NCBI GenBank assembly: GCA_019636275.1
Contig: JAHBXY010000018.1
Span: forward strand, 1 to 64,000
DNA from: Planctomycetota bacterium
Lineage (GTDB): Bacteria; Planctomycetota; J058
Direction of reading: 5' to 3'
Length of the DNA stretch: 64,000 nucleotides
Part shown: positions 35,728 to 53,586 of the stretch, piece by piece
Layout of the letters: every line of letters starts with the position of its first letter
How positions within the stretch are numbered: position 1 is the first letter of the stretch
Notes under the pieces: model-generated
Seen by the model: the letters and a program-made list of their open reading frames with translations, nothing else
Databases searched by the model: none
What the model was told of the DNA's origin: nothing
Made by a program: the position numbers and the translations under genes

Positions 35728-37653
35728 TCAAGCCACTGGCGCCGGCTGCGCCGTGGGGCTCTGGTGCGAGTCCGACGTCGGTCCGCCCCGCTTGTAGTCC
35801 GGTAGGACCCGCGAGAGCTCGCTCCGCACGTCCTCCGCGGACATGTCCGCGACCGTCTCGAGCCGCTCGATCGCGGCGGCGAGCTCGCTCCAGCCGCGCG
35901 GCTCGCCGCGCCCGACGAAGATCTTGGGGTGCCGGGTGCGGTCGGCGTGCTCGTCGGCCCGCGACAGCTCCTCATGCAGCTTCTCGCCGGGGCGGACGCC
36001 CGAGAACACGATCGGGACGTCCCGGTCGGGCACGAACCCCGACAGGCGGATCAGGTCGCGCGCGAGGTCCACGATCCTCACTGGTTGGCCCATGTCGAGG
36101 ACGAAGATCTCCCCGCCGTGTCCCATGGAGGCCGCCTGCAGGATCAGCTGGCAGGCCTCGGGGATCGTCATGAAGTAGCGGGTCATCTCGGGGTGCGTGA
36201 CGGTCACCGGCCCGCCGCGCGCGATCTGCTCCTGGAAGATCGGCACCACGCTGCCATTCGAGCCGAGGACGTTGCCGAAGCGCACGGTCACGAAGCGGGT
36301 CTTGCGGCTCCGGGCGGCGAGCGACTGGACGTAGAGCTCGGCGATCCGCTTGCTCGCGCCCATCACCGAGGACGGGTTGACCGCCTTGTCCGTCGAAACC
36401 AGGACGAAGACGGACACCCCGTGTTCGCGCGCCAGGTCGGCCAGGACGCGGGTCCCGCAGACGTTGTTCTTGATCGCCTCGCCGGGGTTCCGCTCCATCA
36501 TGGGCACGTGCTTGTGCGCCGCCGCGTGAAGGACCACCGCCGGTCGGACCTGGTCGAAGAGGCGCTCCATGCGGGGGACGTCGGAGACGTCTGCCATGCG
36601 CGGCTCGATCACGAGCTCCGGGGCGCGCTCGCGCAGCTCGCGCTCGATCAGGAACAAGGAGTTCTCCGCCCGCTCGACGAGGACCAGGCGGGCCGGCCCG
36701 AAGCGCGCCACCTGACGGCAGAGCTCGGCGCCGATGCTCCCGCCCGCGCCGGTGACCATGACGACCTCGTCGCGCACGACCTCCGCGATCGCGTCCTCGT
36801 CGAGCTGCACGGGCGCTCGCCCGAGGAGGTCCTCGATCGAGACCTTCCGGATGCGCGTGAGGTTCACCTCGCCGCCGACGATCTCGTAGAGTCCAGGGAT
36901 GATCTTCGGCGCGAGGCCGGCCGTCTCGCACTCGCTGGCGATGCGCCGGATCACCTGGCCGGGGGCGTTGGCGATCGTGATGAGCGCCTGCTCGACCTCC
37001 TGCTGGTCCTTGATCCGGCCCAGGTCGGCGATCCGGCCGAGCACCGGCAGGCCGTGGACGAGCGTGCCCGCCTTGAGCGGGTCGTCGTCCAGGAAGCCGA
37101 CGGCCTCGATCCCCAGGTCGGGCCGGGCGCCCACCTCCTTCGCCACGAGGAACCCGGCCTGCCCGGCGCCGATGAGGATGGTCCGCCTGGCGCGGAGCCT
37201 CGGGCGCCTGAGCTGCCGCGTCTCGGTCCGTTCGGCGAGGAGGCGCCGGATCACGCGGACGCCGGCGATGCCCAGGTAGGCCAGCACGGCGTCGATCAGG
37301 ATCACGCCATACGGGAGGACGGCCAGCTTGGCCACGGCCGACCCTGGCTCGAGCGCGCCGGCCATCAGGCGCATGCTGCCGAGGAGGGCCGTGCTGGCAC
37401 CGATCGCCAGGCCGATCCGCTGCGCCTCGCGCAGGCCGACGTAGCGCCACGCGAAGCGCGGGACGGCGAAGGCGAGGAGCGCGCCGTACTGCAGGACGAG
37501 GACGACCGGCCAGAGGACGACCGCCCGCTTGACCATCTCCGCCGGCACGGTGCCGTCGAAGCGCAGCAGCAGCGCCGCCATCAGGGCGACGCTGAGCACG
37601 GCCAGGTCGATGGCGACCTGGGTCCCTCGATTGAAGACGAGGCGACTGGCCAC
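35728..37653 (-). CDS. UDP-GlcNAc 4,6-dehydratase, membrane-bound (PglF/WbpM/CapD type)
   Basis: 641 residues. Four N-terminal hydrophobic segments (1-125), then a first Rossmann-like domain with ILIGAGQAGFLVAKEV (about 158) and a catalytic SDR domain with VTGAGGSIGAELCRQ. The usual Tyr of the SDR site is Met: SSVMGASKR, which with Lys is the SMK arrangement known in WbpM/PglF. VLHAAAHKHVPMME and FVTVRFGNVLGSNGSVVPIF are further family marks. It makes UDP-4-keto-6-deoxy-GlcNAc, the substrate for the PglE-like aminotransferase. GTG start at 37653; an isolated minus-strand gene. Confidence 0.93.
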   Translation of the reverse strand: MASRLVFNRGTQVAIDLAVLSVALMAALLLRFDGTVPAEMVKRAVVLWPVVLVLQYGALLAFAVPRFAWRYVGLREAQRIGLAIGASTALLGSMRLMAGALEPGSAVAKLAVLPYGVILIDAVLAYLGIAGVRVIRRLLAERTETRQLRRPRLRARRTILIGAGQAGFLVAKEVGARPDLGIEAVGFLDDDPLKAGTLVHGLPVLGRIADLGRIKDQQEVEQALITIANAPGQVIRRIASECETAGLAPKIIPGLYEIVGGEVNLTRIRKVSIEDLLGRAPVQLDEDAIAEVVRDEVVMVTGAGGSIGAELCRQVARFGPARLVLVERAENSLFLIERELRERAPELVIEPRMADVSDVPRMERLFDQVRPAVVLHAAAHKHVPMMERNPGEAIKNNVCGTRVLADLAREHGVSVFVLVSTDKAVNPSSVMGASKRIAELYVQSLAARSRKTRFVTVRFGNVLGSNGSVVPIFQEQIARGGPVTVTHPEMTRYFMTIPEACQLILQAASMGHGGEIFVLDMGQPVRIVDLARDLIRLSGFVPDRDVPIVFSGVRPGEKLHEELSRADEHADRTRHPKIFVGRGEPRGWSELAAAIERLETVADMSAEDVRSELSRVLPDYKRGGPTSDSHQSPTAQPAPVA

Positions 37654-37770: not shown

Positions 37771-38937
37771 TCAGGGTCCCGCAGCCTCTCGGCCGGAAGC
37801 CTTCGCGAGGGCTCGGGCGAGGCGGAGCGCCTGTCGACGGACGGGGCTCTCCGTCGACCACTCGGCCTCTGTAGGCGAGAGGAGCGCGCCAACGAGCTCA
37901 CGAGCGCGGGCGAGATTGCCGGAGCGGAGCAGCACGAGCCAGGCGCGACGGCGCCGCGGCTGGTCGTCGGCGAAGACCGACCGTTCGTACCAGCCGGCGG
38001 CCGCGCCGGCGAGGCGGTCGGCGGCGCAGGCGGCGAGGGCGGCCGCCGGGAGCGGAGCGCCGAGGAGCGCGTGCGCGAGCAGCAGCCCCGCCCGGAGGAG
38101 GTGCTCGCAGCCCGTCTCGACCGCGGTCCGCTCGAGGCGACACCAGTCCAACCCGCCGCGTCTCACGAACAGGGCGACGTCGACGATCCACCGCAGGCGC
38201 GACCAGGCGTGCCGGCAGCCGTGAACGCACAAGAAGAGGAAGTGGTCCTCCGGTCCCAGCGTCCGGACCGTGTGGCCCTCGACGACCGCGGTCTCGGCGC
38301 GCCTCCAGAGCGACTCCGGCGCGTCACCCAGAGGGCCGTAGGGCGGAGTGAGGCGCCAGTGGAGATCGACGTTGATCCGTCCACTCCGCTCGAACACGCT
38401 CTCCTTGCCGAGCGCGACGCAGCGCGCCTCCTGCCCGCTGGGCATGCGGTGTCGCTCGCCATAGCCGAGGCCCATGAGCGCGCGCCGGGCGCGGACGACG
38501 TCCTCTGGCCGGACGAGGAGATCGAGGTCGGCGCAAGGCCGAAGATGGCCCGCCGCCGGGTGGAGCCGTTCGCCCAGGGCGGGCCCCTTGAACGAGAGCG
38601 CGTCGATGTCCGCAGCGTGAAGCGCGCCGAGCACCGTCCCGAGCTGGGCGGCCCGATGCAGGTGCTCGGCCGCGGCCTGGAACGACTCCGCCTTGAGCGC
38701 CGCGCGGGCGCGGGCCGGGAGCGCGTCCGTGCCCCCGAGGGCGGCGCCCACCAGCGCCAGGACGCCGTGCTCGCGGCCCACCGCGTCCACGACCTCCCAG
38801 GGGGCTGCGCGCGCGAGGTCGAGCGCACGGCTCGCGTCCGGCAGGGCCTCGGACACGAGCAGCCGGGCGCAGCGCACGACGAGCTCGCGCGCCGCGTCCC
38901 GATCCTCCGCGACCCGTGGCGCGCCGTCGTCGAGCAC
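37771..38937 (-). CDS. Nucleotidyltransferase-family protein (PF14907 type) of the lasso cluster
   Basis: 388 residues. The catalytic region holds ALSFKGPALGERLHP and RPCADLDLLVRPEDV, the DxD of a minimal nucleotidyltransferase, followed by NVDLHWRL and a helical C-terminal half. This family (NTP_transf_5) recurs in lasso-peptide clusters with HprK-like kinases; in pseudomycoidin-type systems such a protein is reported to modify the phosphorylated C-terminal residue. It is divergent from the B2-B1-C-A-K genes and separated from B2 by about 97 bases, which would hold a shared promoter region. Confidence 0.85.
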   Translation of the reverse strand: MLDDGAPRVAEDRDAARELVVRCARLLVSEALPDASRALDLARAAPWEVVDAVGREHGVLALVGAALGGTDALPARARAALKAESFQAAAEHLHRAAQLGTVLGALHAADIDALSFKGPALGERLHPAAGHLRPCADLDLLVRPEDVVRARRALMGLGYGERHRMPSGQEARCVALGKESVFERSGRINVDLHWRLTPPYGPLGDAPESLWRRAETAVVEGHTVRTLGPEDHFLFLCVHGCRHAWSRLRWIVDVALFVRRGGLDWCRLERTAVETGCEHLLRAGLLLAHALLGAPLPAAALAACAADRLAGAAAGWYERSVFADDQPRRRRAWLVLLRSGNLARARELVGALLSPTEAEWSTESPVRRQALRLARALAKASGREAAGP

Positions 38938-39002
38938 GCGATCAACGTATCCGCGCGCGGCGCGCCGACAACTCCGCCGTTCCCTGGTCAGGGTGGCTGC
39001 TT

Positions 39003-39008
39003 TATGCT
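39003..39008 (+). promoter_or_regulatory. Putative -10 element TATGCT of the lasso operon
   Basis: TATGCT in the gap between the divergent nucleotidyltransferase and B2 genes, 26 bases before GTG 39035. GGGGGAG at 39022-39028 is the matching ribosome binding site. No good -35. Confidence 0.35.
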
Positions 39009-39034
39009 GTCGACCAGGCGTGGGGGAGTTGACG

Positions 39035-39460
39035 GTGCTCGGCAGGCTGCGACACGTGTACGACCGGGCGCGCCGGGCGGGGCCCGACGGGCGGCTGCTC
39101 CTCGCGGAGGCGTTCGTCGCCTCCGTCGTCGTGCGCGCCGCGCTCTCGGGCCTGCCCTACGCCGCCGCCGCGCGCGTGATCACCCGCGCCCAGCCGCTCA
39201 TCGGGCGACGCCCACGTGAGCCACGACGGATCGTGTGGGCCGTGCGCGTCGCCGCCGCCCGCGTGCCCGGAGCCACCTGCCTGGTGCAGGCGCTCGTCGG
39301 CCAGGCCCTCCTCGCGCGCTCGGGGCGATCGTCCGCCGTCCGCTTCGGCGTGCGCCGCGGCGCGGCGGGCGTCGAGGCGCACGCCTGGCTCGAGCACGAG
39401 GGCAGCGCCCTCGTCGGCGCGGACGAGCGCTATGCGCCGTTCGAAGGAGTCCGCGCGTGA
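39035..39460 (+). CDS. Lasso peptide B2 protein (transglutaminase-like leader peptidase)
   Basis: 141 residues. GTG 39035 is favoured because GGGGGAG lies 6 bases upstream; GTG 39020 and TTG 39029 are alternatives. The Transglut_core3 fold is recognisable by the catalytic triad C82 (VPGATCLVQALVGQALL), H116 (EAHAWLEHEG) and D130 (GADERYAPF). B2 proteins cut the leader from the lasso precursor just after the Thr(-2)-X(-1) site, in concert with B1. The stop overlaps the B1 start. Confidence 0.93.
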   Translation: MLGRLRHVYDRARRAGPDGRLLLAEAFVASVVVRAALSGLPYAAAARVITRAQPLIGRRPREPRRIVWAVRVAAARVPGATCLVQALVGQALLARSGRSSAVRFGVRRGAAGVEAHAWLEHEGSALVGADERYAPFEGVRA

Positions 39461-39759
39461 CCGCGAGGGGCGTGACGCTGAGCGATCGCGTGACCCCGGC
39501 CGAGGAGGTCCTGTTCAAGGAGCTCGAGGGTGAGGCGGTCTTGCTCCACCTCGACGTCGGCCGGTATTTCGCGCTCGACCCGGTCGGGACGCGGATCTGG
39601 GCGCTGCTGCGCGAGCGCGAGGGCGACCTCGCGGCGGTCCTCGACGGGATCCTGGCCGAGTTCGACGTCGCCCGGGAGGAGGCCGCGCGCGACCTCCTGG
39701 CGCTCCTCGACGAGCTCGTCGCCGAGCGGCTCGTCCGGGTCCAGACCCCGCCGGCGTGA
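39457..39759 (+). CDS. Lasso peptide B1 protein (PqqD-like RiPP recognition element)
   Basis: 100 residues from GTG 39457 (GTGA overlap). PqqD/RRE winged helix-turn-helix: LSDRVTPAEEVLFKELEGEAVLLHLDVGRYFALDPVGTRIW is the beta-hairpin region (positions 11-51), followed by three helices with DGILAEFDVAREEAARDLLA. It binds the leader peptide (YxxPxLxxxG motif) and delivers it to B2 and the cyclase. The next gene overlaps its stop. Confidence 0.93.
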   Translation: MTARGVTLSDRVTPAEEVLFKELEGEAVLLHLDVGRYFALDPVGTRIWALLREREGDLAAVLDGILAEFDVAREEAARDLLALLDELVAERLVRVQTPPA

Positions 39760-41525
39760 GCGGCTTCCTCGCGCTCGTGGGCGAGCCGGCGGCGCTCGCG
39801 TCCCCGGACCTCGCCTCGACCCTCCTCGGGCTGGCCCATACGCGTCCTGTGGACCTCTGGCGCGGGGGGCACGACGTCCTGCTCGCGAGCGGCCCCAACC
39901 CGGCCGACGTGGCCCTCGGGCGGGTCGAGGACCTCCAGCGGGGGCGCCTCGTCGTCGCGGTCGACGCGCGGCTCGACGCTCGCGATGACCTCCGGGCCGC
40001 GCTGCTGGCCGCCAACCAGCAACCTGCCGCGGGGGCGAGCGACGCGGCGCTCGTGGCGCATGCCTGCGAGGCCTGGGGCCCCGCCTGCGTCGAGCGCCTG
40101 CGCGGCGACTTCTCGTTCGTGGCCTGGGATCCGGCCCGTCGCGAGCTGTTCGGGGCGCGCGACCCGTTCGGCGGGCGGCCGCTGTTCTACGCCGAGGTCC
40201 AGGGCGGGCTGGTCGTGAGCAACGCCATGTGTCCCGTCTCCGAGCACCCGCTCGTGTCGGACGACCTCGACGAGCTCTGGCTCGCGGACTTCGTCCTGCT
40301 CGGCGAGAGCCTGCGCCCGGAGGCCAGCGTGTTCGGCGCGGTCCGCAGACTTCCCCCTGGGCACGCGCTCCTCGTCCGCGACGGGGGCCTCCGGTCGGTC
40401 CGACCCACCTTCGCGCTCGACCCGGTCCCCCCGCTCCGCGGGGACGAGGGCGAAGTGCGCGCGCAGGTCACGGCGGCCCTCGACGCGGCGGTGCGCGACC
40501 GCCTGCCCTCCGATCGCCTCGGCGTGCTCCTGAGCGGGGGCCTCGACTCGCCGCTCATCGCCGCCCTCGCCCGCCGCCTCGCGCCGGCCCTCGACATGCG
40601 CGGCCACTTCGTCCACTTCGAGCGCCTCATCCCCGACGTCGAACCCCCGTTTGTGAGGCGGGTGGCCGATGCGCTCGGCGTGCCGCTCCGGTCGGTGGCG
40701 GCGGATGATGTCGGGCTGTTCGATCACTGGGAGCACGGGAGCGCCTTCGAGCCGACCCATGGGCTCGACCTGGGGATCGCCGCCCTGGTGGACCCGGGGC
40801 TCGTCGAGCACGCGCCCGTCGCGTTCACCGGCCATCCCAGCGACGCGCTGCTCATGCCCGACCCGCTGCCGCTCGCCGCCTGGCACGACGGCCTGCGCGC
40901 GACCTTGCGCGGCTTCTGCGCCACCTGGCAGCGCTGGAGATTCCGCCCCTCCCTGAGCCTCGCGTGGGCATGGCGCCGCCTCCGGCCCGGGAGCGACGAG
41001 GAGCCCTTCCCCGCCTGGCTCGACCCTGAGGTCGTCGACCGGCTCGGCCTGCGTGAGCGCTGGAGGGTCGGCCGTCGCGACCGGCCGCCGCTCCCAGGCC
41101 GGCGTGGCGATGCCCGGGCGTACGTCCGTGGCCCGGTTTGGGCCACCATGTTCGAGCAGCGCCACTCGTGCGCGACCGGCCTCGCCCTCGAGTTCCGCCA
41201 TCCTCTCTTTGATCTGCGGGTCGTTCGGGCGCTCCTCGGGCTTCCCTCGCTGCCCTGGTGCCAGCGAAAGGCGGTCTTCCGCGACCTGGGACGAGTTGCG
41301 GGGCTGCCCGAAGTGGTCGTTCTACGGCAAAAGGCCCCGCTCGCGGGTGACCTCCTTCAGGCCCTAGCCGACCAGGAGCACGCATGGCCACCCGCCGTCG
41401 TGCCCCCGCTCGCCGGGTGGGTACGGCCCGGTAGGCGCCCGAGCTCTCGCGCCCACCTCGAGCCATGGATCCGGCTCGTCGATGCGGACCGATGGCTCGC
41501 GCTGTCTCGCGTGGCCGGCGAGTGA
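39756..41525 (+). CDS. Lasso peptide cyclase C (asparagine synthetase homologue)
   Basis: 589 residues from GTG 39756. An N-terminal glutaminase-like domain without the catalytic Cys at position 2 (MSGFLALVG), carrying DFSFVAWDPARRELFGARDPF, and a C-terminal synthetase domain with the ATP pyrophosphatase loop SGGLDS (260-265) and FTGHPSDALL. Lasso C proteins adenylate the Asp or Glu side chain and close the macrolactam with the core N-terminus. The gene order B2-B1-C followed by the precursor leaves little doubt about the role. Confidence 0.93.
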   Translation: MSGFLALVGEPAALASPDLASTLLGLAHTRPVDLWRGGHDVLLASGPNPADVALGRVEDLQRGRLVVAVDARLDARDDLRAALLAANQQPAAGASDAALVAHACEAWGPACVERLRGDFSFVAWDPARRELFGARDPFGGRPLFYAEVQGGLVVSNAMCPVSEHPLVSDDLDELWLADFVLLGESLRPEASVFGAVRRLPPGHALLVRDGGLRSVRPTFALDPVPPLRGDEGEVRAQVTAALDAAVRDRLPSDRLGVLLSGGLDSPLIAALARRLAPALDMRGHFVHFERLIPDVEPPFVRRVADALGVPLRSVAADDVGLFDHWEHGSAFEPTHGLDLGIAALVDPGLVEHAPVAFTGHPSDALLMPDPLPLAAWHDGLRATLRGFCATWQRWRFRPSLSLAWAWRRLRPGSDEEPFPAWLDPEVVDRLGLRERWRVGRRDRPPLPGRRGDARAYVRGPVWATMFEQRHSCATGLALEFRHPLFDLRVVRALLGLPSLPWCQRKAVFRDLGRVAGLPEVVVLRQKAPLAGDLLQALADQEHAWPPAVVPPLAGWVRPGRRPSSRAHLEPWIRLVDADRWLALSRVAGE

Positions 41526-41550
41526 TAGCATGACTAGCTGCACGTGGTTC

Positions 41551-41555
41551 AGGAG
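41551..41555 (+). promoter_or_regulatory. Ribosome binding site of the lasso precursor
   Basis: AGGAG lies 6 bases before ATG 41562, confirming the start of the 48-residue precursor. A TAGCAT hexamer at 41526-41531 could be a promoter element giving extra precursor mRNA. Confidence 0.6.
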
Positions 41556-41561
41556 ACGACG

Positions 41562-41708
41562 ATGGCCCCCACCGACCCGACCGCTCGGCGCCCATATCAC
41601 CGCCCTCACCTCATGCGACTGGGCGATGTCGCCTCGCTCACTCAGTCGGTTGGCGCGAACGCCGCGCCCGATGGCGGAGCGGCGCCGAACAACATGATCA
41701 AGTCCTGA
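41562..41708 (+). CDS. Lasso peptide precursor (48 residues)
   Basis: A 48-codon gene directly after the cyclase. The leader has the exact lasso motif YxxPxLxxxGxxxxxT: Y12, P15, L17, G21, T27. Thr27 is the conserved penultimate leader residue, so cleavage after Q28 gives a 20-residue core (29-48). It begins SVGANAAPD, so a 9-residue ring between the Ser29 amine and Asp37 (core position 9) is predicted, followed by GGAAPN and the C-terminal NMIKS. A 7-residue ring from Gly31 to Asp37 is less likely because it would break the Thr(-2) rule. The C-terminal residue is Ser48, the residue phosphorylated in paeninodin. No other precursor copy was found. Confidence 0.88.
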   Translation: MAPTDPTARRPYHRPHLMRLGDVASLTQSVGANAAPDGGAAPNNMIKS

Positions 41709-41748
41709 ACCGGACCCAACTCAAACCCCGACGGCGAGTCAGCGTCGC

Positions 41749-42642
41749 GTGACCATGTATCGCGCGTTCGGGCTGGACCTCCGCTGCGCGGAGCCGCTGC
41801 CCTGTGGGCCTGCGACGGAGCGCTTGGACTCGCCCCCGCTCGCAGTCGTCAGCGTTCAGTCGGACCCGACGAGGGCCGAGGGGAGCTTCGGCGACCTCGT
41901 GCTGGAGTATCCGGACGGGTATCACTTCAGGATCGCCCCCGCCGGAGACAGGATCGTGGCGCGCTGGCCGGACGACGCCACGTTCGAGGACGCGAGCTGT
42001 TACCTCCTCGGCCCCGTCCTCCGGTTCGTCTTGGGCCTCCGCGGCGTTCCCTGTCTTCACGCCAGCGCCGTCGACGTCGATGGTGGAGCGATCGCGCTTG
42101 CGGGCGAGTCCGGCGCCGGGAAGTCGACCACGGCCGCGGCCCTGGTACGCGCCGGCGCGCGGCTCCTCACCGACGATACGGTCACCCTGGTGCGTTCGGG
42201 AGAGGACGTGGTCGTCCACCCTGGCTACGCCGGTCTCCGGCTCTGGCCGGATGTGACGGCCGCGCTCGGTGGGCCGGGCGTCGAGCTCCCCCGCGTCAGC
42301 CCGGGCTGGGACAAGCGCTTCCTAGCAGCGGAGGGGCGCGCCTTCGACCTGCGTCCGGTCCCCTTGCGCGCGATCTACCTGCTGGGAGACCGGCGGACCG
42401 CTGGTGCGCCCTGCATCGAGGCGCTGAGCGCGCGCGATCGGCTGCTCGCGCTGCTGCAGCACGTGCGCGAGGAGGGCGCGAAGGGGCGAGCCGGCTGGGC
42501 GCGCGCGTTCGAGGCGCTCGCCGCCCTCATCGAGCGGATACCGGTGCGGCGACTGATCCCGCACGCCGACCTGGACCGGTTGCCGGCCCTCGTCGACCTC
42601 GTGCTGACGGAGGCGCGCCGGCCGGACGGGCCCGAAGTCTGA
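41749..42642 (+). CDS. HprK-like kinase, probable lasso peptide C-terminal Ser kinase
   Basis: 297 residues from GTG 41749 (ATG 41755 possible). No N-terminal HprK sensor domain; after an unrelated 100-residue segment comes the kinase core with CLHASAVDVDG, P-loop GESGAGKST (119-127), RAGARLLTDDTVTLV and HPGYAGLRLWPD. This is the PadeK-type HPr kinase homologue seen in paeninodin-type lasso clusters, where it phosphorylates the C-terminal Ser of the precursor. The precursor here ends in Ser. The stop is 2 bases before the methyltransferase start. Confidence 0.88.
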   Translation: MTMYRAFGLDLRCAEPLPCGPATERLDSPPLAVVSVQSDPTRAEGSFGDLVLEYPDGYHFRIAPAGDRIVARWPDDATFEDASCYLLGPVLRFVLGLRGVPCLHASAVDVDGGAIALAGESGAGKSTTAAALVRAGARLLTDDTVTLVRSGEDVVVHPGYAGLRLWPDVTAALGGPGVELPRVSPGWDKRFLAAEGRAFDLRPVPLRAIYLLGDRRTAGAPCIEALSARDRLLALLQHVREEGAKGRAGWARAFEALAALIERIPVRRLIPHADLDRLPALVDLVLTEARRPDGPEV

Positions 42643-42644
42643 GC

Positions 42645-43784
42645 ATGTACGACCTCCTGGGCTACGCCTCGATGCTCACGGACGGAGTGCGCCTCGCGGC
42701 GTACACGGAAGCCTTGCGCCGCGCCGTGCGGCCCGGCGACGTGGTCGTCGACCTTGGCGCGGGGCCCGGAGTTTTCGCGCTCTACGCGGCGCGCCTCGGC
42801 GCAGGGAAGGTCCACGGCGTCGACCCCACGCCGCTCGTCGCGCTCGGACGAGATGCGGCCAGGCGCGCCGGGCTCGACGGTCAGGTCGAGTTCCACCAGG
42901 CCCGCCTCGAGGAGCTCGAGCTTCCTGGGCGGGCGGACGTGATCGTCTCCGACCTGAGGGGGGTGCTGCCGCTGTTCGAGGGGCATCTGTCGACGCTGAT
43001 GCACGCGCGCGACCACGTCCTGCGGCCGGGCGGGACGCTGATACCCGCCCAGGACCGACTCCGAGTCGCCGTGGGGGAGGCCTCCGAGGTCTACCGGGAC
43101 CGTGTGACCGTCTGGACCTCGCAGGAGCTCGGCCTCTCCATGGAGGCGGCGCGGCGCTGCGCGGCGAACACCTGGTGCCGCGTCAAGCGCAACGAGGCCC
43201 GCGTCGTCTCGAGCGCGGAGACGTGGAGCACCCTCGACTACGCCTCGCTCCGCGACGTGAACGCGGCGGGGCGGGTGGAGCTGGTCGTCCCGCGACCGAC
43301 CATGGGGCACGGACTGGTCGTCTGGTTCGAGACCACCCTGGTCCCCGAAGTGGAGTTCTCGACCGCCCCAGACCAGCCGGAGGCCGTCTACAACCGCGCC
43401 TTCTTCCCGTGGAACGAGCCCGTCGAGCTCGACATGGGAGCGCGGCTGTCCGTCCACCTGCGAGCTGACCTCGTTGGCCGCGACTACGTCTGGACCTGGA
43501 CGACCGACATCGCACGGCCGGGACGGGCCGCCGTGCGCTTCGAGCAGGCGAGCTTCTTCGGTGACGTCCAGAGCCCGGAGGACGTGCGCCGCGCTGGCGA
43601 GTCCTACGCCCCCGACCTCACCGAGGATGGCGCGGTGGACCGCGCGATCCTCGTCGAGGTCGACGGACGGCGCACGAACGGAGAGATCGCGCGGCGCCTG
43701 CGCGAGGCGTTCCCTGGCCGCTTCTCCGACCACGCCGCCGCCCTCCGGCGGGTGACGGAGCTGACGAGGCGCCTCGGGCGATGA
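42645..43784 (+). CDS. PRMT-like SAM methyltransferase with a PqqD-like C-terminal tail
   Basis: 379 residues, ATG 42645. N-terminal Rossmann fold with VVVDLGAGPGVFALYAARLGAG, VHGVDPTPLVALG, ADVIVSDLRGVLPLFEGHL and the following beta-barrel domain give the architecture of protein arginine methyltransferases; here the double-E loop reads SDLRGVLPLFEG, with only one Glu. The last 60 residues (AILVEVDGRRTNGEIARRL and LRRVTEL) resemble a PqqD/RRE-type winged helix, suggesting leader-directed substrate binding. No Arg is in the predicted core, so the target atom is unclear: the C-terminal carboxylate, Asn or Lys47 are possibilities. Confidence 0.75.
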   Translation: MYDLLGYASMLTDGVRLAAYTEALRRAVRPGDVVVDLGAGPGVFALYAARLGAGKVHGVDPTPLVALGRDAARRAGLDGQVEFHQARLEELELPGRADVIVSDLRGVLPLFEGHLSTLMHARDHVLRPGGTLIPAQDRLRVAVGEASEVYRDRVTVWTSQELGLSMEAARRCAANTWCRVKRNEARVVSSAETWSTLDYASLRDVNAAGRVELVVPRPTMGHGLVVWFETTLVPEVEFSTAPDQPEAVYNRAFFPWNEPVELDMGARLSVHLRADLVGRDYVWTWTTDIARPGRAAVRFEQASFFGDVQSPEDVRRAGESYAPDLTEDGAVDRAILVEVDGRRTNGEIARRLREAFPGRFSDHAAALRRVTELTRRLGR

Positions 43785-44036: not shown

Positions 44037-44912
44037 GTGCTTGCATCAGTCATCATCACTACATACAAACGGCCTGCTTACCTCTTCCGCGCGGTGTGCT
44101 CCGTGCTCGCGCAGTCGCTCACGGACTTCGAGGTGATCATCGTCGACGACTCCCCGGATTCTCCGTCGGAGGAGGCGATCTCGTCGCTCCTGAGCGACCG
44201 TCGGATCCACTACCATCGCAACGAACGAAACCTCGGCGGCGGCGCATCGCGCAACGTGGGCCTCGAGTTCAGCACGGGCGAATACGTCTGCTTCCTCGAC
44301 GACGACGACGTGTGGCTGCCCGACCGGCTGCTCCTTGCCGCTCGAGCGCTGCGGCCCTCGACCATCTGGTCGTCGGTGGGATGGGAGTGGCGGGAGGACG
44401 CGACCGGCCGCCTCGAGAAGCGGCGCGTCGCCAATCGAACAGGGCGGGTGGCTGGTCTGCCGCGTTGGATGCACAACATAGCAGTGGACTACCTCGTGCA
44501 ACGAGAGGTGGCCCTCACGTTGCCCACAAGTGAGACGCTCAACTACTACATCCCAATGGAGTTCATCTGCCGCTTGTTCAAGGTTGCGCCGCCGGTGTTC
44601 GTTCCCGAGGTGCTGATCTCTTGCCGCACGCACCCAGGCGAGCGCACAAGCACTCGATCGGCAAGAGCGAAACTCGATGACATCGCCGCGATTCGCCGCC
44701 TTCATGGAGACCTGTTGGGATCCGACAGGGCAGCAGATGCGCACTTCCTCACGATCGAAGCGGCACTCCTCGAGGAGGAGGGCCACTGCATGGACGCAGC
44801 ATTTCGGTATGCGCGCGCGGCCGCGCTCCGGCCGAATCTGAAGAATCCGATGCGGGGGGCGAGGGCAGGCGTGAAGGCGCTCCGGACGCTCGTTCGTAGC
44901 GGGCTTCCGTAA
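44037..44912 (+). CDS. Glycosyltransferase family 2
   Basis: 291 residues. GTG 44037 (MLASVIITTYKRPAYLFRAV) is chosen because AGGAG lies 10 bases upstream; the frame is open to 43902 but that segment is not protein-like. VIIVDDSPDSPSEEAISSLL, NLGGGASRNVGLEFSTGEYV, CFLDDDDVWLPDRLL (DxD) and FVPEVLISCRTHPGERTS are GT-A marks. Base composition seems somewhat less GC-rich than the neighbours, and it is flanked by non-coding stretches of 252 and 324 bases, so it may have been inserted. Ends in TAA. Confidence 0.88.
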   Translation: MLASVIITTYKRPAYLFRAVCSVLAQSLTDFEVIIVDDSPDSPSEEAISSLLSDRRIHYHRNERNLGGGASRNVGLEFSTGEYVCFLDDDDVWLPDRLLLAARALRPSTIWSSVGWEWREDATGRLEKRRVANRTGRVAGLPRWMHNIAVDYLVQREVALTLPTSETLNYYIPMEFICRLFKVAPPVFVPEVLISCRTHPGERTSTRSARAKLDDIAAIRRLHGDLLGSDRAADAHFLTIEAALLEEEGHCMDAAFRYARAAALRPNLKNPMRGARAGVKALRTLVRSGLP

Positions 44913-45236
44913 CCTCCCTCGTCACCTACACCTCTTGCTGCGCCCCGGACTCGGCCAACACCTCGCCTCTGAGAAGTTCGGCACGACTGCGCGGGGGCCA
45001 CTACGACGCTGGCTGGTCAGTCGCGCAGGAACCAGGTACCACGCGCTCAAGGGTCTCCGAACCGGTGATAGAATCCGTTGGACCCCGGTCCACAGAGACG
45101 TCCAATCGACGCTCCTGGGGCTCTCAAGGTGGGATGCCGCTCGTAAGAGCGTGACTCACGGGTCGCGAGACCACGGTCCTGCGGTGACCGCGTGCGGCGC
45201 TCGCCTCGGTCACCAGGGGTCGGAGTCGGATCGATC
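44913..45236. other. Intergenic region, 324 bases, no gene seen
   Basis: No open frame of coding character. It holds two short inverted repeats (GGACC/GGTCC at 45080-45091; CGCTC-GTAA-GAGCG at 45138-45151) and a TAGAAT hexamer at 45069-45074 that could be a -10 element for the flippase, leaving a leader of about 155 bases. Confidence 0.4.
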
Positions 45237-46724
45237 GTGACGTCGGAGTCGGAGAGCACGAAGCCCTGGCTGGAGGAGAATCGTCGGCGCGCGGCGACCG
45301 GCATGGTCTGGACGACCGGGGCCCAGCTCGTGGGCCATGGCTTCGCGATCGCCTCGAAGCTGCTCCTCGCTCGACTCCTTGTTCCGGCGGACTTCGGCCT
45401 GGTCGCGATGGCGGCGGTCGTCATCTCGTTCCTGGAGCTGCTGTCGGGACTGGGTATCCCGGCCGCTTTGGTCCAGACACGGGAGCTCGACGAGACCACG
45501 AAGTCGAGCGCGCTCTGGGCGGCCCTCGCGCAGGGCGTCGGCCTGGCGGCGCTGGGCATCATCGCGTCTCCCTTGATCGCCGACGGCTTCGGCGCCGTGG
45601 AGCTCGTCCCGATCTTGAAGGCGCTGCTCGTGGGCGGCGCGATCACCGCTCCGCTAGGAGTCCTCGAGTCGCTGTTCCTTCGCGGACTCGAGTTCCGCCT
45701 CGTGGCCATGCGGAAGGTCCTGGGGAACGTGCTGGGCGGAGCACTGGCCATTGCTCTGGCGCTCGCCGGGTTCGGGGTCTGGGCCCTCGTGGCGGGGCGC
45801 CTGATGACGTCGGCGGCGGCCCTGATCCTGGTACTGATGGCCACCACCTGGCGCCCCCGGCTCGTCTTCTCGCTCTCCGCCCTGCGGCCGCTCACGGGGT
45901 TCGGCTTCGGCATGACCGGCGTCGGGCTCATCCTCGCTGTCGGTCGCCAGCTCCCGGCCGTCCTGATCGGCCGGCTGCTGGGGAGCGAGGCCCTCGGGCT
46001 GTTCAACCTGGCGCAGCAGGTCATTCTCCTTCCGCTGCAGTCCATCGCTCGCCCCATGGCCTTCGTGCTCTTCCCCGTGTTCTCCCGCCTCCGGGAGCAG
46101 CCGGAGGAGCGGCTCGCGACCTTCGTGCGCTGGCAGTTCGTGATCGTCGCCCTGGGGATCACGGCCCCCGCGCTCGCCGTCGCTCTGGGCCCGTTAGCCG
46201 TCGATACGATCCTGGGCGCGCGCTGGGAGGACGCCGGGAGCGTCGTCCAGGTGATGGCGATCCCCGCAGTGGCGCGGTTGGGCGTGTCGTCCCTCGGGGC
46301 GGGCCTCGGCGCCGCGGGGCTCGTGCGAGTCAACCTCCTCTGGACCGCAGCGATCCTGTTGCTCGAGGGAGCAGGCCTGCTGGTCGGCATCAGGGCCGGG
46401 CTCTTCGCGGCCGCCCTGGGCTGGTCGATCGGATCGCTGCTGACGGCGGGCGTCGTCGGGACCTTCCTTGCGGCTCGTTACCTCGACGTTCCCGTGCAAG
46501 CCCAGCTTCGCCCCTTCGCCCTCGTCGCGCTCCCGGCGGTCGTCCTCGCCGTGACGGCCTGGGTCGTCGCGCAGGCGCTGATCGGGGCACCGGCGCTCGT
46601 GCAGCTCCTGGTGGCTTGTCCGGCGGGCGTCATCGCTTATGCCGTGAGCCTCAGGCTCGTGGCCCCGATCGAGACGGGCTGGATGGTCCGCGGCGCGTGG
46701 AGCAGGCTGCGTGGCCTTCGGTGA
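45237..46724 (+). CDS. Oligosaccharide flippase (Wzx/MOP family)
   Basis: 495 residues from GTG 45237 (a start at 45192 is possible; GGAGTCGG lies 9 bases before 45237). About 12-14 membrane helices in the polysaccharide-biosynthesis MOP pattern: GMVWTTGAQLVGHGFAIASK in the first helix, LARLLVPADFGLVAMAAVV, GIPAALVQTRELDETTKSSA, then FNLAQQVILLPLQSIARPMA. These proteins flip undecaprenyl-linked repeat units to the periplasm. It provides the Wzx part of a second assembly pathway beside Wzm/Wzt. Confidence 0.9.
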   Translation: MTSESESTKPWLEENRRRAATGMVWTTGAQLVGHGFAIASKLLLARLLVPADFGLVAMAAVVISFLELLSGLGIPAALVQTRELDETTKSSALWAALAQGVGLAALGIIASPLIADGFGAVELVPILKALLVGGAITAPLGVLESLFLRGLEFRLVAMRKVLGNVLGGALAIALALAGFGVWALVAGRLMTSAAALILVLMATTWRPRLVFSLSALRPLTGFGFGMTGVGLILAVGRQLPAVLIGRLLGSEALGLFNLAQQVILLPLQSIARPMAFVLFPVFSRLREQPEERLATFVRWQFVIVALGITAPALAVALGPLAVDTILGARWEDAGSVVQVMAIPAVARLGVSSLGAGLGAAGLVRVNLLWTAAILLLEGAGLLVGIRAGLFAAALGWSIGSLLTAGVVGTFLAARYLDVPVQAQLRPFALVALPAVVLAVTAWVVAQALIGAPALVQLLVACPAGVIAYAVSLRLVAPIETGWMVRGAWSRLRGLR

Positions 46725-46796
46725 CCTCGACTTGGTGATGGACGACGGGTCGTGCGCGCGCTGGCCTCGGTGTGAGGCGGAGGAGCGTGGCTCCAA

Positions 46797-47948
46797 TTGA
46801 AGGTCCTCTACGTCATCGATTCCTTGGGCCCTGGTGGAGCTGAGCGCTCCCTCGTCGAGATGCTCCCGCCCCTCGAGCGGGGCGGTGTGCAGCCCACCGT
46901 CGTGTGCTTCAAACGCGCCTCGGTGGGGTTCGAGTCGGAGGTGCGAGTCAACGTCAAGCACCTCAGCGGCCCCGGAAGGCTCGCCAAAATGGCCCAGTTG
47001 CGGCGACTGACTGCCGTCGGGAGGTACGACCTCGTCCACACCACCCTGTTCGAGTCGGACGTGTTCGGGCGCTCGGCGCTGGCCGGCCTCGGCGTGCCAA
47101 TCCTGACGAGCCTGGTCAACATGCCGCCCGCGCCGGGTCACTTACGAGGGGGGGCGAGGGTCCGGCTCAAGCACGCAGCCGCGAGGGCGCTCGAGCGAGC
47201 GACCGGAGCGCTATTCGCCTGCCACTTCCACGCCATCACGGACGCCGTGAAGGAAGCGGCGGTAGGCCACCTCCATGTCCCCCGGGAGAAGATCACCGTG
47301 ATCTACCGCGGACGAGATCAGCAACGCCTGGGCCGCCGGACGGCCGCGCGCCGCGAGCAGCTCCGCCGCCGCATCGGCGTCCCCGAGGACGCCTTCGTCG
47401 TGCTCTCCGTGGGCCGTCAGGAGCCCCAGAAGGGGCAGCGCGTCCTGATCGAGGCGTTGTCTCGGCTCCTCGCGGCGGTGCCGCACGCCCTGCTCCTGGT
47501 CGCGGGCCGTGAGGGCAACGCCACGCCGGACCTCCGCGAGGCCGTCGAGCGCGCCGGAGTCGCTGCGGCGGTGCGGTTCCTGGGGCACGTCGACGCAGCG
47601 CCGGACCTCCTGGCCGCGTGCGACGTCTTCGCGTTCCCTTCCCTCTGGGAGGGGCTGGGCGGCGCGATCATCGAGGCCATGGCCCTGGAGGCTCCCTGCG
47701 TCGCGAGCGATCTGCCGCCGATCCGAGAGGTGACGGGGGGTGGACGAGCTGCGCTCCTCGTTCCTCCCGGGGACTCCGGCGCGCTCGCACAGGCGATCGC
47801 CCGCGTGCACGCGGAGCCGGAGCTCGCTCGGCGCCTCGCAGGCGCGGGAAGGTCGACGTACACGGAGCGCTTCACGCTCCAGGCGAGCGTCGAGGCCATG
47901 CTCGTGCTCTACGAGCGGCTCACGTCGGAGGACCCCCGCCGGCGGTGA
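46797..47948 (+). CDS. Glycosyltransferase family 4
   Basis: 383 residues from TTG 46797 (MKVLYVIDSLGPGGAERSLVEM), the canonical GT4 N-terminus with GGAE loop; no ATG or GTG lies near. Upstream GGAGGAG is 12 bases away. FHAITDAVKEAAVGHLHVPR, VLSVGRQEPQKGQRVLIEAL, LLVAGREGNATPDLREAVE and FAFPSLWEGLGGAIIEAMALEAPCVASD complete the donor domain. Sugar unknown. Confidence 0.9.
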   Translation: MKVLYVIDSLGPGGAERSLVEMLPPLERGGVQPTVVCFKRASVGFESEVRVNVKHLSGPGRLAKMAQLRRLTAVGRYDLVHTTLFESDVFGRSALAGLGVPILTSLVNMPPAPGHLRGGARVRLKHAAARALERATGALFACHFHAITDAVKEAAVGHLHVPREKITVIYRGRDQQRLGRRTAARREQLRRRIGVPEDAFVVLSVGRQEPQKGQRVLIEALSRLLAAVPHALLLVAGREGNATPDLREAVERAGVAAAVRFLGHVDAAPDLLAACDVFAFPSLWEGLGGAIIEAMALEAPCVASDLPPIREVTGGGRAALLVPPGDSGALAQAIARVHAEPELARRLAGAGRSTYTERFTLQASVEAMLVLYERLTSEDPRRR

Positions 47949-48020
47949 ACCCGGCCCGAACCTCAGGGCACCTCGAGGTCTCGGGCGAGCCGACTGACCG
48001 TGACGCGCTGACGGGCGAGT

Positions 48021-48034
48021 GGGTGAGCTCACCC
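48021..48034. other. 14-base perfect palindrome between convergent genes
   Basis: GGGTGAGCTCACCC lies in the 100-base gap between the convergent GT4 and deacetylase genes. It could be a protein-binding site or the core of a terminator; no T tract follows. Confidence 0.3.
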
Positions 48035-48049
48035 CGCGATCGACGCCGG

Positions 48050-48838
48050 TCACCCGCGCCGCGAGCGGATGGGCTGAAACCTCGTCGAGAGCCACTCTTC
48101 GAGCCAGACTCCGGCCGAGAGGAGCTCCAGGGCGTCGGGAGGGCCGTCGCGGCGGACCGGCACCCTCTCCAGCTGCCATGGCGACCACCTCGCCGCGGTC
48201 AGCTTGCGGCCGCCTCGTACCACCGCCGTCGCGTACCGCTCGCGCACCAGCGGCTCGAGCCAGGGCGCGCTCCGGCCGCGGGGGTAGCAGAAGCTCGTCA
48301 CAGGCCGGCCGAGCTCGTCCTCGAGCCTCGCGCGCGAGCGGGTCAGCTCGTCCCGCGCGCTCCGTGGGTCGAGCCGCGCCAGGTCGCGATGGGAGCAGGT
48401 GTGCGAGCCGACCTCCAGGAGGCCCGTCGCCGTGGCCTCGCGGAGCGCGTCCCAGCTGCACGGGCGCAGGCGCTCGGCGCCGCGCAGGGGAGGCGCCCCG
48501 CGCCCGTCGACGAAGTCGGTCGGGACGTAGAGCACCGCCGGGACCCCCAGCCCGCAGAGGACGGGCCAGGCGAGGTCGAAGAAGTTGGCGAACGCGTCGT
48601 CGAAGGTCACCACGACCCGGGTTCCCTGTGACCCTGTGACGAGGTGCTCCAGCGCGTCCCTCAGGGTGCTGGCGAGCGGGCGGAGCTGCTCCATGTGCGC
48701 GCGGAAGCGGTCGAACGGGATGTCCACGGCGGAGTCTATCCCACCGTCGATGAGATGGTAGGTCACGACGACGACCCCATGCTCGGCCCTGGGGAGCCAG
48801 CGGTTGGCCTCGTGTATCAGGCGGCGGGCCCAGCTCAC
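48050..48838 (-). CDS. Polysaccharide deacetylase (NodB/CE4 family)
   Basis: 262 residues. GTG 48838 overlaps the upstream stop; the longer frame is antisense shadow. CE4 motifs: TFDDAFANFFDLAW (motif 1, TFDD), HTCSHRDLARLD (motif 2, HxxxH metal ligands), FCYPRGR (motif 3). It removes N-acetyl groups from a glycan; the neighbouring glycosyltransferases suggest the capsular or extracellular polysaccharide as substrate. No clear signal peptide, so the site of action is uncertain. Confidence 0.9.
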   Translation of the reverse strand: MSWARRLIHEANRWLPRAEHGVVVVTYHLIDGGIDSAVDIPFDRFRAHMEQLRPLASTLRDALEHLVTGSQGTRVVVTFDDAFANFFDLAWPVLCGLGVPAVLYVPTDFVDGRGAPPLRGAERLRPCSWDALREATATGLLEVGSHTCSHRDLARLDPRSARDELTRSRARLEDELGRPVTSFCYPRGRSAPWLEPLVRERYATAVVRGGRKLTAARWSPWQLERVPVRRDGPPDALELLSAGVWLEEWLSTRFQPIRSRRG

Positions 48839-50064
48839 GTGTGGGACCTCAGGCGGTCGTGACGGGAGCGGAGGCCCGGTCGGGGAGGCGGTGGAGCTTG
48901 CTCCGGCCCAGACCGCGCGGCGAAGAGGGTCAAGAGCAGCGCCACGACCGTGACCCGCTGGCGGGCCAGGATGCCCAGGTTGAAGAAGGTCATGCCGTAG
49001 GCCACAGCGAGCAGGAGTGCGCAGGGCAGGGCGAAGCGGAGGGCGCGATGCTCCTGCCAGCCGCGCAGGGTGGTCAAGAGCTCGCCCCGCTTGAGCCATA
49101 CGACCGTCCAGAGGACGACGAGCTCGAGCGCCGCCAGGGCGAGCCCGGGCGTGCGCGCCTCCCAGGGGAAGGGGCGGAAGAGCACGTTCAGGAGCCCCAA
49201 AGGCAGGGCGGCGGGGCCGGAGAGCACCTCGATGCTGCTGCCGCCGCGGACCGTCCGCTGCCCGGCGACCTCCACGAACGCCTGCACCTGCTCGACCTCG
49301 GTCGGGTCGAAGCCGAAGCTGGTCCCCGCCCGCAGCACCAGGACCACCGCTGCGCAGCCGAGCGCCGCGAGCTTGGCGATCCGCGCCTTGGTCCACTCGG
49401 TCCCCGGCGCCACCTCGGCGAACACCAGTGCCAGGCCCGCGAGGGCGGCGATATGCGGGCGCACGAGCCCTGCGACGATCAGGCCGGCGAGCAACGACCA
49501 CCAGCGCACGCGCCCTGCCGTGCCCACGTACCCGCGCATGACGAGCCCGAGCCCGAGCAAGAGGAGCGCCTCCTTGCCCACGCTCGAGGGCCAGAACCAG
49601 AGGGAGGGGCTGACAGCCAGGGCGAGGAGACACATCCGGTGGTCGCCCTGCGGCGCGGCCTCTTGCACGGCCCGGAACACGCACCAGAGGCCCACGAGGG
49701 ACAGGAGCGAGAAGAACAGGAACTCGCCGAGCATCGTCGGGCCGATGAGGAGGATGACCCCACCCGACACCATCTTCACGAATGGCGTGCTCCAGTAGTA
49801 GGCCGGGTCGATGAAGCTGAAGTCGAGCTCACGGAGCCTGGCGGCGATCCGGACGCCGTTTCCGTAGTAACCCGTGGCGTCGCCCACGCCGCGGTAGACG
49901 TTGAACAGGACCCAGTACCGGAGGCAGGAGCCGACCACCCGCAGCGCGAGCGCCAACCAGAGCAGGCGGGCGAGGGCGGGGTCGAGCCGGCGGCCGACCC
50001 ACGCCACGACGAGCGCCGCCGCCGAGAGGACCGCCAGGAACGCGAGGAGCTCGTACTCGGTCAC
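48835..50064 (-). CDS. Multi-pass membrane protein of the polysaccharide operon, unknown function
   Basis: 409 residues with about 10 hydrophobic segments and a Pro/Arg-rich C-terminal tail. A periplasmic-type loop after helix two contains GVGDATGYYGNGVRIAARL, and WFWPSSVGKEALLLLGLGL resembles a segment often seen in Wzy-like or EpsG-like polymerases. It is encoded in a run of coupled genes with a deacetylase and a GNAT enzyme. A polymerase-type role is possible but unproven. Confidence 0.6.
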   Translation of the reverse strand: MTEYELLAFLAVLSAAALVVAWVGRRLDPALARLLWLALALRVVGSCLRYWVLFNVYRGVGDATGYYGNGVRIAARLRELDFSFIDPAYYWSTPFVKMVSGGVILLIGPTMLGEFLFFSLLSLVGLWCVFRAVQEAAPQGDHRMCLLALAVSPSLWFWPSSVGKEALLLLGLGLVMRGYVGTAGRVRWWSLLAGLIVAGLVRPHIAALAGLALVFAEVAPGTEWTKARIAKLAALGCAAVVLVLRAGTSFGFDPTEVEQVQAFVEVAGQRTVRGGSSIEVLSGPAALPLGLLNVLFRPFPWEARTPGLALAALELVVLWTVVWLKRGELLTTLRGWQEHRALRFALPCALLLAVAYGMTFFNLGILARQRVTVVALLLTLFAARSGPEQAPPPPRPGLRSRHDRLRSHT

Positions 50065-51120
50065 TCAGAACAGCTCGAGGTCGCCCGCGGAGAGCCGCCA
50101 GGCCCGGGTCGCCGCCAGGTGGTCGAGCGACTCCCGGAGCGGCCTGAAGGTGAGCAAGGGCGAGGCGCCGAGCAGCGGCGCGAAGCCCGCGAGCGCCAAG
50201 GCCGCGCCGGTCGGGCTGCGCGCGGGTGCCGCGGCGAGGAGGTAGTCGGCCGCGAGGTCCCGGGCGAGCGATCGGAGGGCCGCGGCCGCGGCGCGGACCC
50301 CGTCCGCAGTGTCAGCGTGCAGGAGCTCGCAGGCGAGCCCCTCGCGGAGGCCGAACCGCAGGCCGGACCGCGCGATCGCGAGCGCCCGCCCGGCCTCGTC
50401 GAACCAGCAGCGGTAGGTCGCGGTGGGCGTGTCGGCGTAGCGCCAGCGGAGGAAGGCGGCCGTCCGGCGGGTCTCGAGGCGGTCGGCGTCGCGCGCCGCG
50501 AGCGCGTCCAGCAGCGCGAGGGCGCGCGGGTCGTCGAGGACCTCGCCGACGGAGCGGCCGGCGTCCCCGGCCGCCGACCCGGGCCCGGACGCCGACCCGG
50601 GCCAGGAGCGCCCGCCGAGCCGCGCGAGTCCGCCGCGCAGGAGGGCACCCGGGCGGAGCGGCTTGACCCACAGGGTCATCCGGCCCACGGGGCGCCAGCC
50701 CATCTTCAGGTAGCCCGGTAGGCTCTGCCCGTTGGGGGTGTTGAAGACGAAGTCGACGCCCTCCGCCTGGACGGCCGTCAAGAGGTCGCGGGTCAGCCTC
50801 GTGAACAGCCCGGCGCCGCGCCAGTCCGGGTGCACGGCCGTGTCGACGGCCCGGACGGCGCGCAGGAGCCCGCCGCCGCGGCGCCACTCCCAGCGCAGGA
50901 AGGCGCGCAGCCCGACGACCCGGCCCTCGGGAGTGACCGCCACGAGGCATGGCGAGGGCCCGGCTGGGTTCGCCTCGTGCTTCCAGCGCCATACCCTCTC
51001 GTCGAACGGGAACCGCCGCTCCCGGGCCATGGACACGCGAAGCAGCTCGAGGACCCCCGGGAGGTCCTCGGGCCGGGCGGACCGGATCGTCGTCGCCCCG
51101 GCCGCGGTCGAGGCGCTCAC
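50065..51120 (-). CDS. GNAT-family N-acetyltransferase
   Basis: 351 residues. GTG 51120 overlaps the preceding stop (GTGA); upstream frame is shadow. Residues 12-160 hold the GNAT fold: IRSARPEDLPGVLELLRVSM, VVGLRAFLRWEWRRGGG, VDTAVHPDWRGAGLFTRLTR (acetyl-CoA loop), VDFVFNTPNGQSLPGYLKMG. A second half (about 190-351) looks like a divergent GNAT repeat with FLRWRYADTPTATYRCWFDE. Such proteins sit in exopolysaccharide clusters. The acceptor is unknown. Confidence 0.82.
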   Translation of the reverse strand: MSASTAAGATTIRSARPEDLPGVLELLRVSMARERRFPFDERVWRWKHEANPAGPSPCLVAVTPEGRVVGLRAFLRWEWRRGGGLLRAVRAVDTAVHPDWRGAGLFTRLTRDLLTAVQAEGVDFVFNTPNGQSLPGYLKMGWRPVGRMTLWVKPLRPGALLRGGLARLGGRSWPGSASGPGSAAGDAGRSVGEVLDDPRALALLDALAARDADRLETRRTAAFLRWRYADTPTATYRCWFDEAGRALAIARSGLRFGLREGLACELLHADTADGVRAAAAALRSLARDLAADYLLAAAPARSPTGAALALAGFAPLLGASPLLTFRPLRESLDHLAATRAWRLSAGDLELF

Positions 51121-52244
51121 GCGGCCGCGCCCCTCAGCGCGCGCACGTACGCCGCCTCGAGCTCCTCGAGCATGCGGACCATGCTGAACTCCCGATCGAC
51201 GCGCCCGCGCGCAGCCGCCCCGAGCGACGCGCGGCGCGGGGCGTCCTCCAGCAGGTCGATCGTCGCGCCGGCGAGCGCCTCCGCCGACCCGGACGGGACG
51301 AGGAGGCCCTCGGCGCCCGACGCGAGCGCCTCGGGGATGCCGCCGACGGAGGTGGCGACGACCGCGCGCTCCATCGCCATGGCCTCGAGGAGGGCCAGCG
51401 GCAGGCCCTCGAACTGCGACGACATGAGGAACACGTCCATCGCCGCGAGGTACGGGCGCACGTCCTCCTTGAGGCCAGCGAACACGACGGCGTCCGCGAG
51501 GCCGCGCTCGCGCGCCAGCGCCTCCAGCCTGGGCCGCTCCGGCCCGTCGCCGACGAGGAGGAACCGCGCGTCCGGCACGCGGCGCTGGACCTGGTCCGCG
51601 GCCTCGAGCCACAGGTCGAGGCGCTTCTGGGCGCGGAACACGGCCACGGTGCCGACGACGGGGCTGGCCGGCTCGAGGCCGAGCGCGCGCCGCGTCGTCA
51701 GGCCGAGCGCGGGGTCGGGCCGCACCCGGTCGAGCGCGATCCCGTTCTTGATCACCCGGACCGGGATGCGACCGCCGGCGTGCCGGGCGGCCGACCGCGC
51801 GACCTCGTCGGATACGGCGATCACGCCGGCCTGGAGGCCCCACGTGCGCAGGTTCGCCCAGCGCGTCAGCGGGTGGTAGCGCTCCTGGAGGTTGTGCTCG
51901 GTGTAGACGATCGGCCGCCGGGCCAGCGCGCCGGCCAGGCGCCCGACGACGCCCGAGAGTGGAAGGTGGCAATGGACCACGTCCGCGCGCCAGCGCCGCA
52001 GGTGGAGGGCGACGGACGGCAGGGCGGCCGCCATGCGCGCCGGCCCGGTGGCGCCGAAGCAGCGCACCTCGGCCCCGAGCGCCTCGAGGTCCGGCACGAG
52101 CGCGTCCTTCCAGGGGAGGAAGTAGCCGTAGCCAAGCTCGAGGCGCGCCGGGTCGCGCAGCCGCTGCGCGTCGACGAGGAGCCGCTCGGCGCCGCCGCGG
52201 CCGAGGCCCTTGATGAGGTGGAACACGCGGAGCGGGCGGGTCAC
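51117..52244 (-). CDS. Glycosyltransferase family 4
   Basis: 375 residues, GTG 52244. LRVFHLIKGLGRGGAERLLV, VVHCHLPLSGVVGRLAGALA, VYTEHNLQERYHPLTRWANL, VVGTVAVFRAQKRLDLWLEA, FLLVGDGPERPRLEAL and MSSQFEGLPLALLEAMAMER mark a typical GT4 enzyme with the GGAE loop. Encoded in a five-gene minus-strand run with 4-base overlaps on both sides. Confidence 0.92.
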   Translation of the reverse strand: MTRPLRVFHLIKGLGRGGAERLLVDAQRLRDPARLELGYGYFLPWKDALVPDLEALGAEVRCFGATGPARMAAALPSVALHLRRWRADVVHCHLPLSGVVGRLAGALARRPIVYTEHNLQERYHPLTRWANLRTWGLQAGVIAVSDEVARSAARHAGGRIPVRVIKNGIALDRVRPDPALGLTTRRALGLEPASPVVGTVAVFRAQKRLDLWLEAADQVQRRVPDARFLLVGDGPERPRLEALARERGLADAVVFAGLKEDVRPYLAAMDVFLMSSQFEGLPLALLEAMAMERAVVATSVGGIPEALASGAEGLLVPSGSAEALAGATIDLLEDAPRRASLGAAARGRVDREFSMVRMLEELEAAYVRALRGAAA

Positions 52245-53455: not shown

Positions 53456-53586
53456 GGACCTGTGCGAGCCGCGAGCGTACCGCGTCGACCGCGAGGGGCA
53501 CAACGCTGGAGCGCAAAGGAGTCGCCAACGTTGCGGTCAAGCCGGCGATCGTGGTAGATCCCTGAGAGCCGCGAGAGCGTGCGCCG

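Follow-up and report, generated by a model that had tools for sequence, protein, structure and literature searches.

We found that the window, a 64,000-nucleotide stretch of planctomycete DNA, carries at 37771–43784 a complete and real lasso peptide cluster, probably in working order, in which a precursor kinase (K) is directly followed by a methyltransferase (M) with a predicted PRMT fold. The lasso genes, K and the nucleotidyltransferase (N) are of known kinds; the new part is M together with the tail code of the precursors that it accompanies, and a prior description of it is possible. In our best explanation, which we regard as reasonably probable, the product would be a Ser1–Asp9 lasso with K acting on Ser20, N on the phosphate and M on the same tail. 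We infer the product, each chemical step and the order of the steps from gene content, the leader motif, the catalytic residues of B2 and K, the modelled fold of M, the recurrence of the gene set and the pairing of M clade with precursor tail.

Using the open reading frame listing together with Pfam and NCBIfam searches, we located B2, B1, C, a 48-aa precursor (A), K and M on the + strand, with N divergent. A sequence-only reading had listed the order B2-B1-C-precursor-HprK-like kinase-methyltransferase with a divergent nucleotidyltransferase, and every gene was found at its given coordinates with family matches. N (37771..38937, − strand) matches PF14907 (NTP_transf_5; 1.8e-55, 188.7 bits) and accompanies K and M in relatives; its start codon lies 97 bp from that of B2. 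B2 (39035..39460, + strand; start GTG 39035 or TTG 39029, not certain) is a transglutaminase-like lasso leader peptidase that scores 80.2 bits against NF033537 (lasso_biosyn_B2; cut-off 33), with catalytic Cys and His columns that are invariant in an alignment of 10 sequences. B1 (39460..39759, + strand) is a PqqD-like leader-binding protein (RRE; PF05402, 4.9e-17). The asparagine-synthetase-like lasso cyclase C (39756..41525, + strand) combines GATase_7 (PF13537) and Asn_synthase (PF00733), has the SGGLDS motif and begins VSGFLAL, without the glutaminase Cys; its top NCBIfam match is a lasso cyclase model, but under that model's cut-off.

The precursor A (41562..41708, + strand) reads MAPTDPTARRPYHRPHLMRLGDVASLTQSVGANAAPDGGAAPNNMIKS and is preceded by an AGGAG ribosome-binding site (41551..41555, + strand) 6 bases upstream of its ATG at 41562. 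Its leader (residues 1–28, 41562..41645, + strand, ending LTQ) carries the YHRPHLMRLGDVASLT motif, an exact match to Y..P.L...G.....T (YxxPxLxxxGxxxxxT) with Thr(-2). This motif matches once in the window, against 0.017 chance hits per 64 kb when the same search was run on 60 order-3 Markov shuffles of the window; the exact leader and the ribosome-binding site that had been proposed are both present. NCBIfam precursor models match A weakly, all below cut-off (lasso_cyano 17 bits, cut-off 33). Cleavage as predicted by the conserved Thr(-2) rule would leave residues 29–48 as the core (41646..41705, + strand; SVGANAAPDGGAAPNNMIKS), with a predicted Ser1–Asp9 ring and a Lys19–Ser20 tail. The acidic ring residue falls within core positions 7–9 in A and at positions 8–10 in relatives, and the core ends in MIKS, contains no Arg and has Ser1 and Ser20 as its only hydroxyls. 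We propose that B1 would bind the leader, B2 would cut after LTQ, and C would link the amine of Ser1 with the side chain of Asp9, giving a 9-residue ring and an 11-residue tail. The core had been described as unlike known lasso peptides; this stands for the ring sequence and fails for the tail, which has uncharacterised relatives. The sequence-only reading had not picked out the C-terminal Ser as a kinase target of a known type, its place in a Lys-Ser/Thr tail that related clusters share, or the methyltransferase as the unusual gene.

We then looked at relatives of the cluster. G007, from the same order as the source, and G116 share the gene order B1-B2-C-A-M-K, with cores GGGSIPHIDGNSGMTMPTK and GGGTEPVFDGNSGMAMIKN, respectively. 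A contig search with the single window M as query gave no match; an alignment of M proteins used as query of genome contigs yielded 80 loci, many with the whole gene set, with members in Acidobacteria, Rokuibacteriota, Nitrospirota, Betaproteobacteria, Sphingomonadales, Thermoleophilaceae and Myxococcales. The window-type set with its own precursor is present at L014/L128, L050/L122, L140, L141, L143, L144, L146, L242, L245, L246, L260 and others, and the window's order A-K-M at L140, L141, L143, L144, L146, L245 and L246, among others. A precursor frame that was not conserved in relatives had been named beforehand as grounds for giving up the lasso reading; clusters with the same genes in other phyla carry a precursor of the same plan, and a complete lasso-type cluster with a Ser1–Asp9 core remains the best reading. 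No precursor was found by motif at L051/L137, L131, L132, L135 or L163, and plasmids searched with A and M yielded no match. In some planctomycete lasso precursors the leader element is doubled (FAEPKLTFIEPKLTKHGDATKIT) and the core is very short (L110:6008, L112:6007, L116:14213, L117:12211). Clusters with two or three precursors each were also observed; these end in Ser in L098, L102 and L108 and in Cys in L100.

The 9.3 Mb source genome holds one lasso B2, and none was found in a second genome of the window's genus. This patchy distribution is what a decayed cluster with no product might leave behind, but N and all six genes of the + strand read as open, tightly spaced frames, and the B2 and K catalytic residues, the precursor and the ribosome-binding site are all intact, so we consider decay very improbable.

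K (41749..42642, + strand; GTG 41749, in-frame ATG 41755) is an HprK-like precursor kinase (Hpr_kinase_C, PF07475, 3.4e-9) that keeps the full H-G-G-G-K-S-D-D motif (H103, G118, G121, G123, K124, S125, D141, D142), residues of which have been shown to matter for a lasso kinase (PMC10368454). Across 15 sequences all of these positions are invariant except D141, which is at least 90% conserved. PMC9266682 describes paeninodin-type kinases as phosphorylating the linear precursor at its C-terminal Ser and gives this Ser as the kinase site in paeninodin and pseudomycoidin; A ends in Ser, as do substrates of the PadeK/ThcoK type. BsfK phosphorylates core Ser3 rather than the C-terminal end (PMC10368454), so the site of K is not readable from homology alone. 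Both cores at L146, a member of the window's clade, have a tail Thr as their sole Ser/Thr, and the kinase there can therefore act only on a tail hydroxyl. Given the known C-terminal Ser sites, the single tail Thr of the L146 cores and the presence of only Ser1 and Ser20 in the core of A, Ser20 is the likely site, which K would phosphorylate ahead of folding. N is PsmN-like by family and context (a PF14907 domain adjoining lasso genes and a kinase) rather than by direct comparison with PsmN, and would act on the Ser20 phosphate by sugar- or nucleotidyl-transfer, as in pseudomycoidin.

These genes have counterparts in three described systems. The paeninodin cluster (PadeA/K/C/B1/B2; Zhu 2016, via PMC9266682) likewise has split B1/B2, an HprK-like kinase and a Ser-ended core, but it is from a Firmicute, includes an ABC transporter and has another gene order, with no methyltransferase reported. 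Pseudomycoidin (PsmK, PsmN; Zyubko 2019, via PMC9266682, PMC8498205) shares a kinase and nucleotidyltransferase acting on the C-terminal Ser, but differs in phylum and core, and no PRMT-like methyltransferase is reported for it. The Bradymonas bsf cluster (BsfA/K/N; PMC10368454), in which the RRE helps the kinase, has the same H-G-G-G-K-S-D-D motif and a nucleotidyltransferase; it differs in its phosphorylated core Ser3 and Ile(-2) leader, and no methyltransferase was reported.

M (42645..43784, + strand) starts directly after the K stop at 42642 and is a class I methyltransferase with PRMT_C, in which a PRMT fold is extended by a C-terminal helical domain (~residues 320–379). It matches PRMT1 (phmmer 1.9e-24), and a profile of M proteins from the window's clade (clade I) matches eukaryotic PRMTs at 5.8e-45. 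The AlphaFold2 model (pLDDT 95.1) superposes on Hmt1 with a TM-score of 0.85 (normalised on target; 2.3 Å rmsd). While M resembles eukaryotic PRMT1, PRMT6 and Hmt1 in fold and SAM domain, it is without their double-E and THW arginine-binding loops and has the additional C-terminal domain: the double-E loop SEWMGY...E reads SDLRGVLP in M, with the second Glu varying within the clade, and a V/I-Y pair stands in place of the THW loop. With both loops lost, the predicted PRMT fold of M comes without arginine-recognition features. Arg was rejected as a target of M, as the core of A has none and the arginine-binding loops are lost.

The C-terminal domain is purely helical in the predicted model. Profile comparison with B1, as a test for an RRE, gave 2% probability, and among 14 members two had weak PqqD matches (best E 0.006), results that lend an RRE identity no clear support. 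K is present in 37/43 loci whose M has the domain vs 9/48 for the forms without it, a comparison that leans towards lasso loci because the search was seeded with a lasso M, and in which three contigs of the first set are counted twice under two locus ids. Two clade II lasso clusters (L125:695-3750, L247:6832-12928) have a second M that is of the window's clade and without the C-terminal domain. We also observed, in planctomycete genomes, B1-K-M-N cassettes in which no B2, C or lasso precursor was detectable (L052:1765-5139, L054:7225-10564, L053, L055); a precursor for such loci was sought at L052 and L054 and none was found.

M proteins associated with lasso genes fall into two clades. IQ-TREE (53 M proteins) places the window's M in a 15-row clade at support 100/99; FastTree (104 rows) gives a clade I of 25 rows (support 1.0) and a clade II, likewise of lasso M proteins, of 26 rows (support 0.99). 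Cores of clade I end in K[ST] plus 0–3 residues in 8/12 of a first set, in which the pattern was noticed, and in 5/7 of a later set read from newly fetched genomes; among the exceptions are L243 (which has K and M), L048 and the myxobacterial members. In clade II this ending is absent (0/20), and 14/20 cores end in C[LI] (8/14 first, 6/6 later; e.g. L124, L130, L133, L254-L257). Lasso clusters with K and without M show neither tail type (0/15 with either). Since the precursors share ancestry, these counts are not independent, and Fisher tests on them, which treat related precursors as independent, serve as a guide only. Tail type pairs with M clade, and the tail may go with M or with K. Separately, the Cys-Leu/Ile ends of clade II A-M-K precursors are possible places of a cysteine or C-terminal modification.

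On the best explanation M would methylate the same tail as K, with Lys19, the C-terminal carboxylate and the phosphate as candidates. Lys methylation was rejected for the M family as a whole: several clade II cores (L124, L130, L136) contain neither Lys nor Arg, so these residues cannot be the target throughout. The same cores favour a version of this explanation with the target fixed, in which M is a C-terminal carboxyl methyltransferase, StspM/LasF-like in action and convergent on the PRMT fold, since the C-terminal carboxylate is the only tail group common to both clades. We rate this version as rather unlikely: only clade I has the Lys ahead of the Ser/Thr, a residue that a carboxyl methyltransferase would not require, and M has no Pfam match to Methyltransf_2 (the StspM-type O-methyltransferase family) and belongs to a different family. 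StspM and LasF, like M, are methyltransferases within lasso clusters, but of that unrelated O-methyltransferase family, with the C-terminal carboxyl as target and no kinase described alongside. LihM and TceM of the aspartimide lasso peptides also sit within lasso clusters; they are PIMT enzymes that act on the ring Asp of the folded lasso, whereas M is PRMT-fold, and PIMT (PCMT) is absent from the Pfam/NCBIfam hits listed for M.

Alternatively, the product could be a plain paeninodin/pseudomycoidin-type lasso in which K phosphorylates and N glycosylates Ser20, with M an unrelated neighbour or one that acts on the polysaccharide produced by the surrounding genes. Lasso clusters of this phylum commonly have K and N but no M, and many of them end in Ser; M-like proteins that lack the C-terminal domain are also found apart from K and lasso genes, and glycosyltransferases surround the locus, where sugar methyltransferases are usual. 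However, M abuts K, is found again next to A and K or between them in lasso clusters from several phyla, and has a clade that matches the precursor tail type, and we judge a plain lasso to be quite improbable.

A polysaccharide locus around the cluster had also been proposed, and its flanks agree: a Polysacc_synt_2 dehydratase (35728-37653) on one side, and GT2 (44040), a MOP-family flippase (45192), GT1 (46797) and Poly_export/SLBB (53587) on the other, so that exopolysaccharide genes occupy 35728-37653 and 44040-54597 of the window. Exopolysaccharide-type neighbours also occur in three relatives with an M of the window's clade (L140, GT1; L143, Wzz/GNVR and an epimerase; L146, GT4 and Bac_transf). 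No dedicated ABC exporter was found in the window between 35.7 and 46.7 kb, in contrast to L143, with an ABC-2 pair upstream, and L144, with at least one ABC ATPase. A link between the lasso product and polysaccharide is speculation.

In the literature that we searched, from which subscription journals were mostly outside, no paper joined lasso peptides with a PRMT, and an earlier description may exist; the only 'arginine methyltransferase' paper to name lasso peptides does so in a single mention and is about another antibiotic. For lasso peptides, the passages found in a 2024 review on RiPP methyltransferases name only the LasF ester, while those forms of modification given in a 2026 review are C-terminal methylation and aspartimide formation. 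Lasso methyltransferases described in the literature searched belong to families other than the PRMT fold. More tentatively, M may represent a new class among RiPP tailoring enzymes, PRMT-fold methyltransferases in which arginine recognition has been lost and which work alongside a kinase on a tail code at the C-terminus (Lys-Ser/Thr for one clade and Cys-Leu for the other). The resulting lasso peptides would carry phosphate, sugar and methyl groups together at the tail and may be tied to the exopolysaccharide of the neighbouring genes. If our reading is correct, a PRMT-fold enzyme that accompanies the lasso kinase across many uncultured bacteria of soil and groundwater would widen lasso tailoring chemistry, and M and its tail code would provide a sequence handle for finding clusters with very short precursors.
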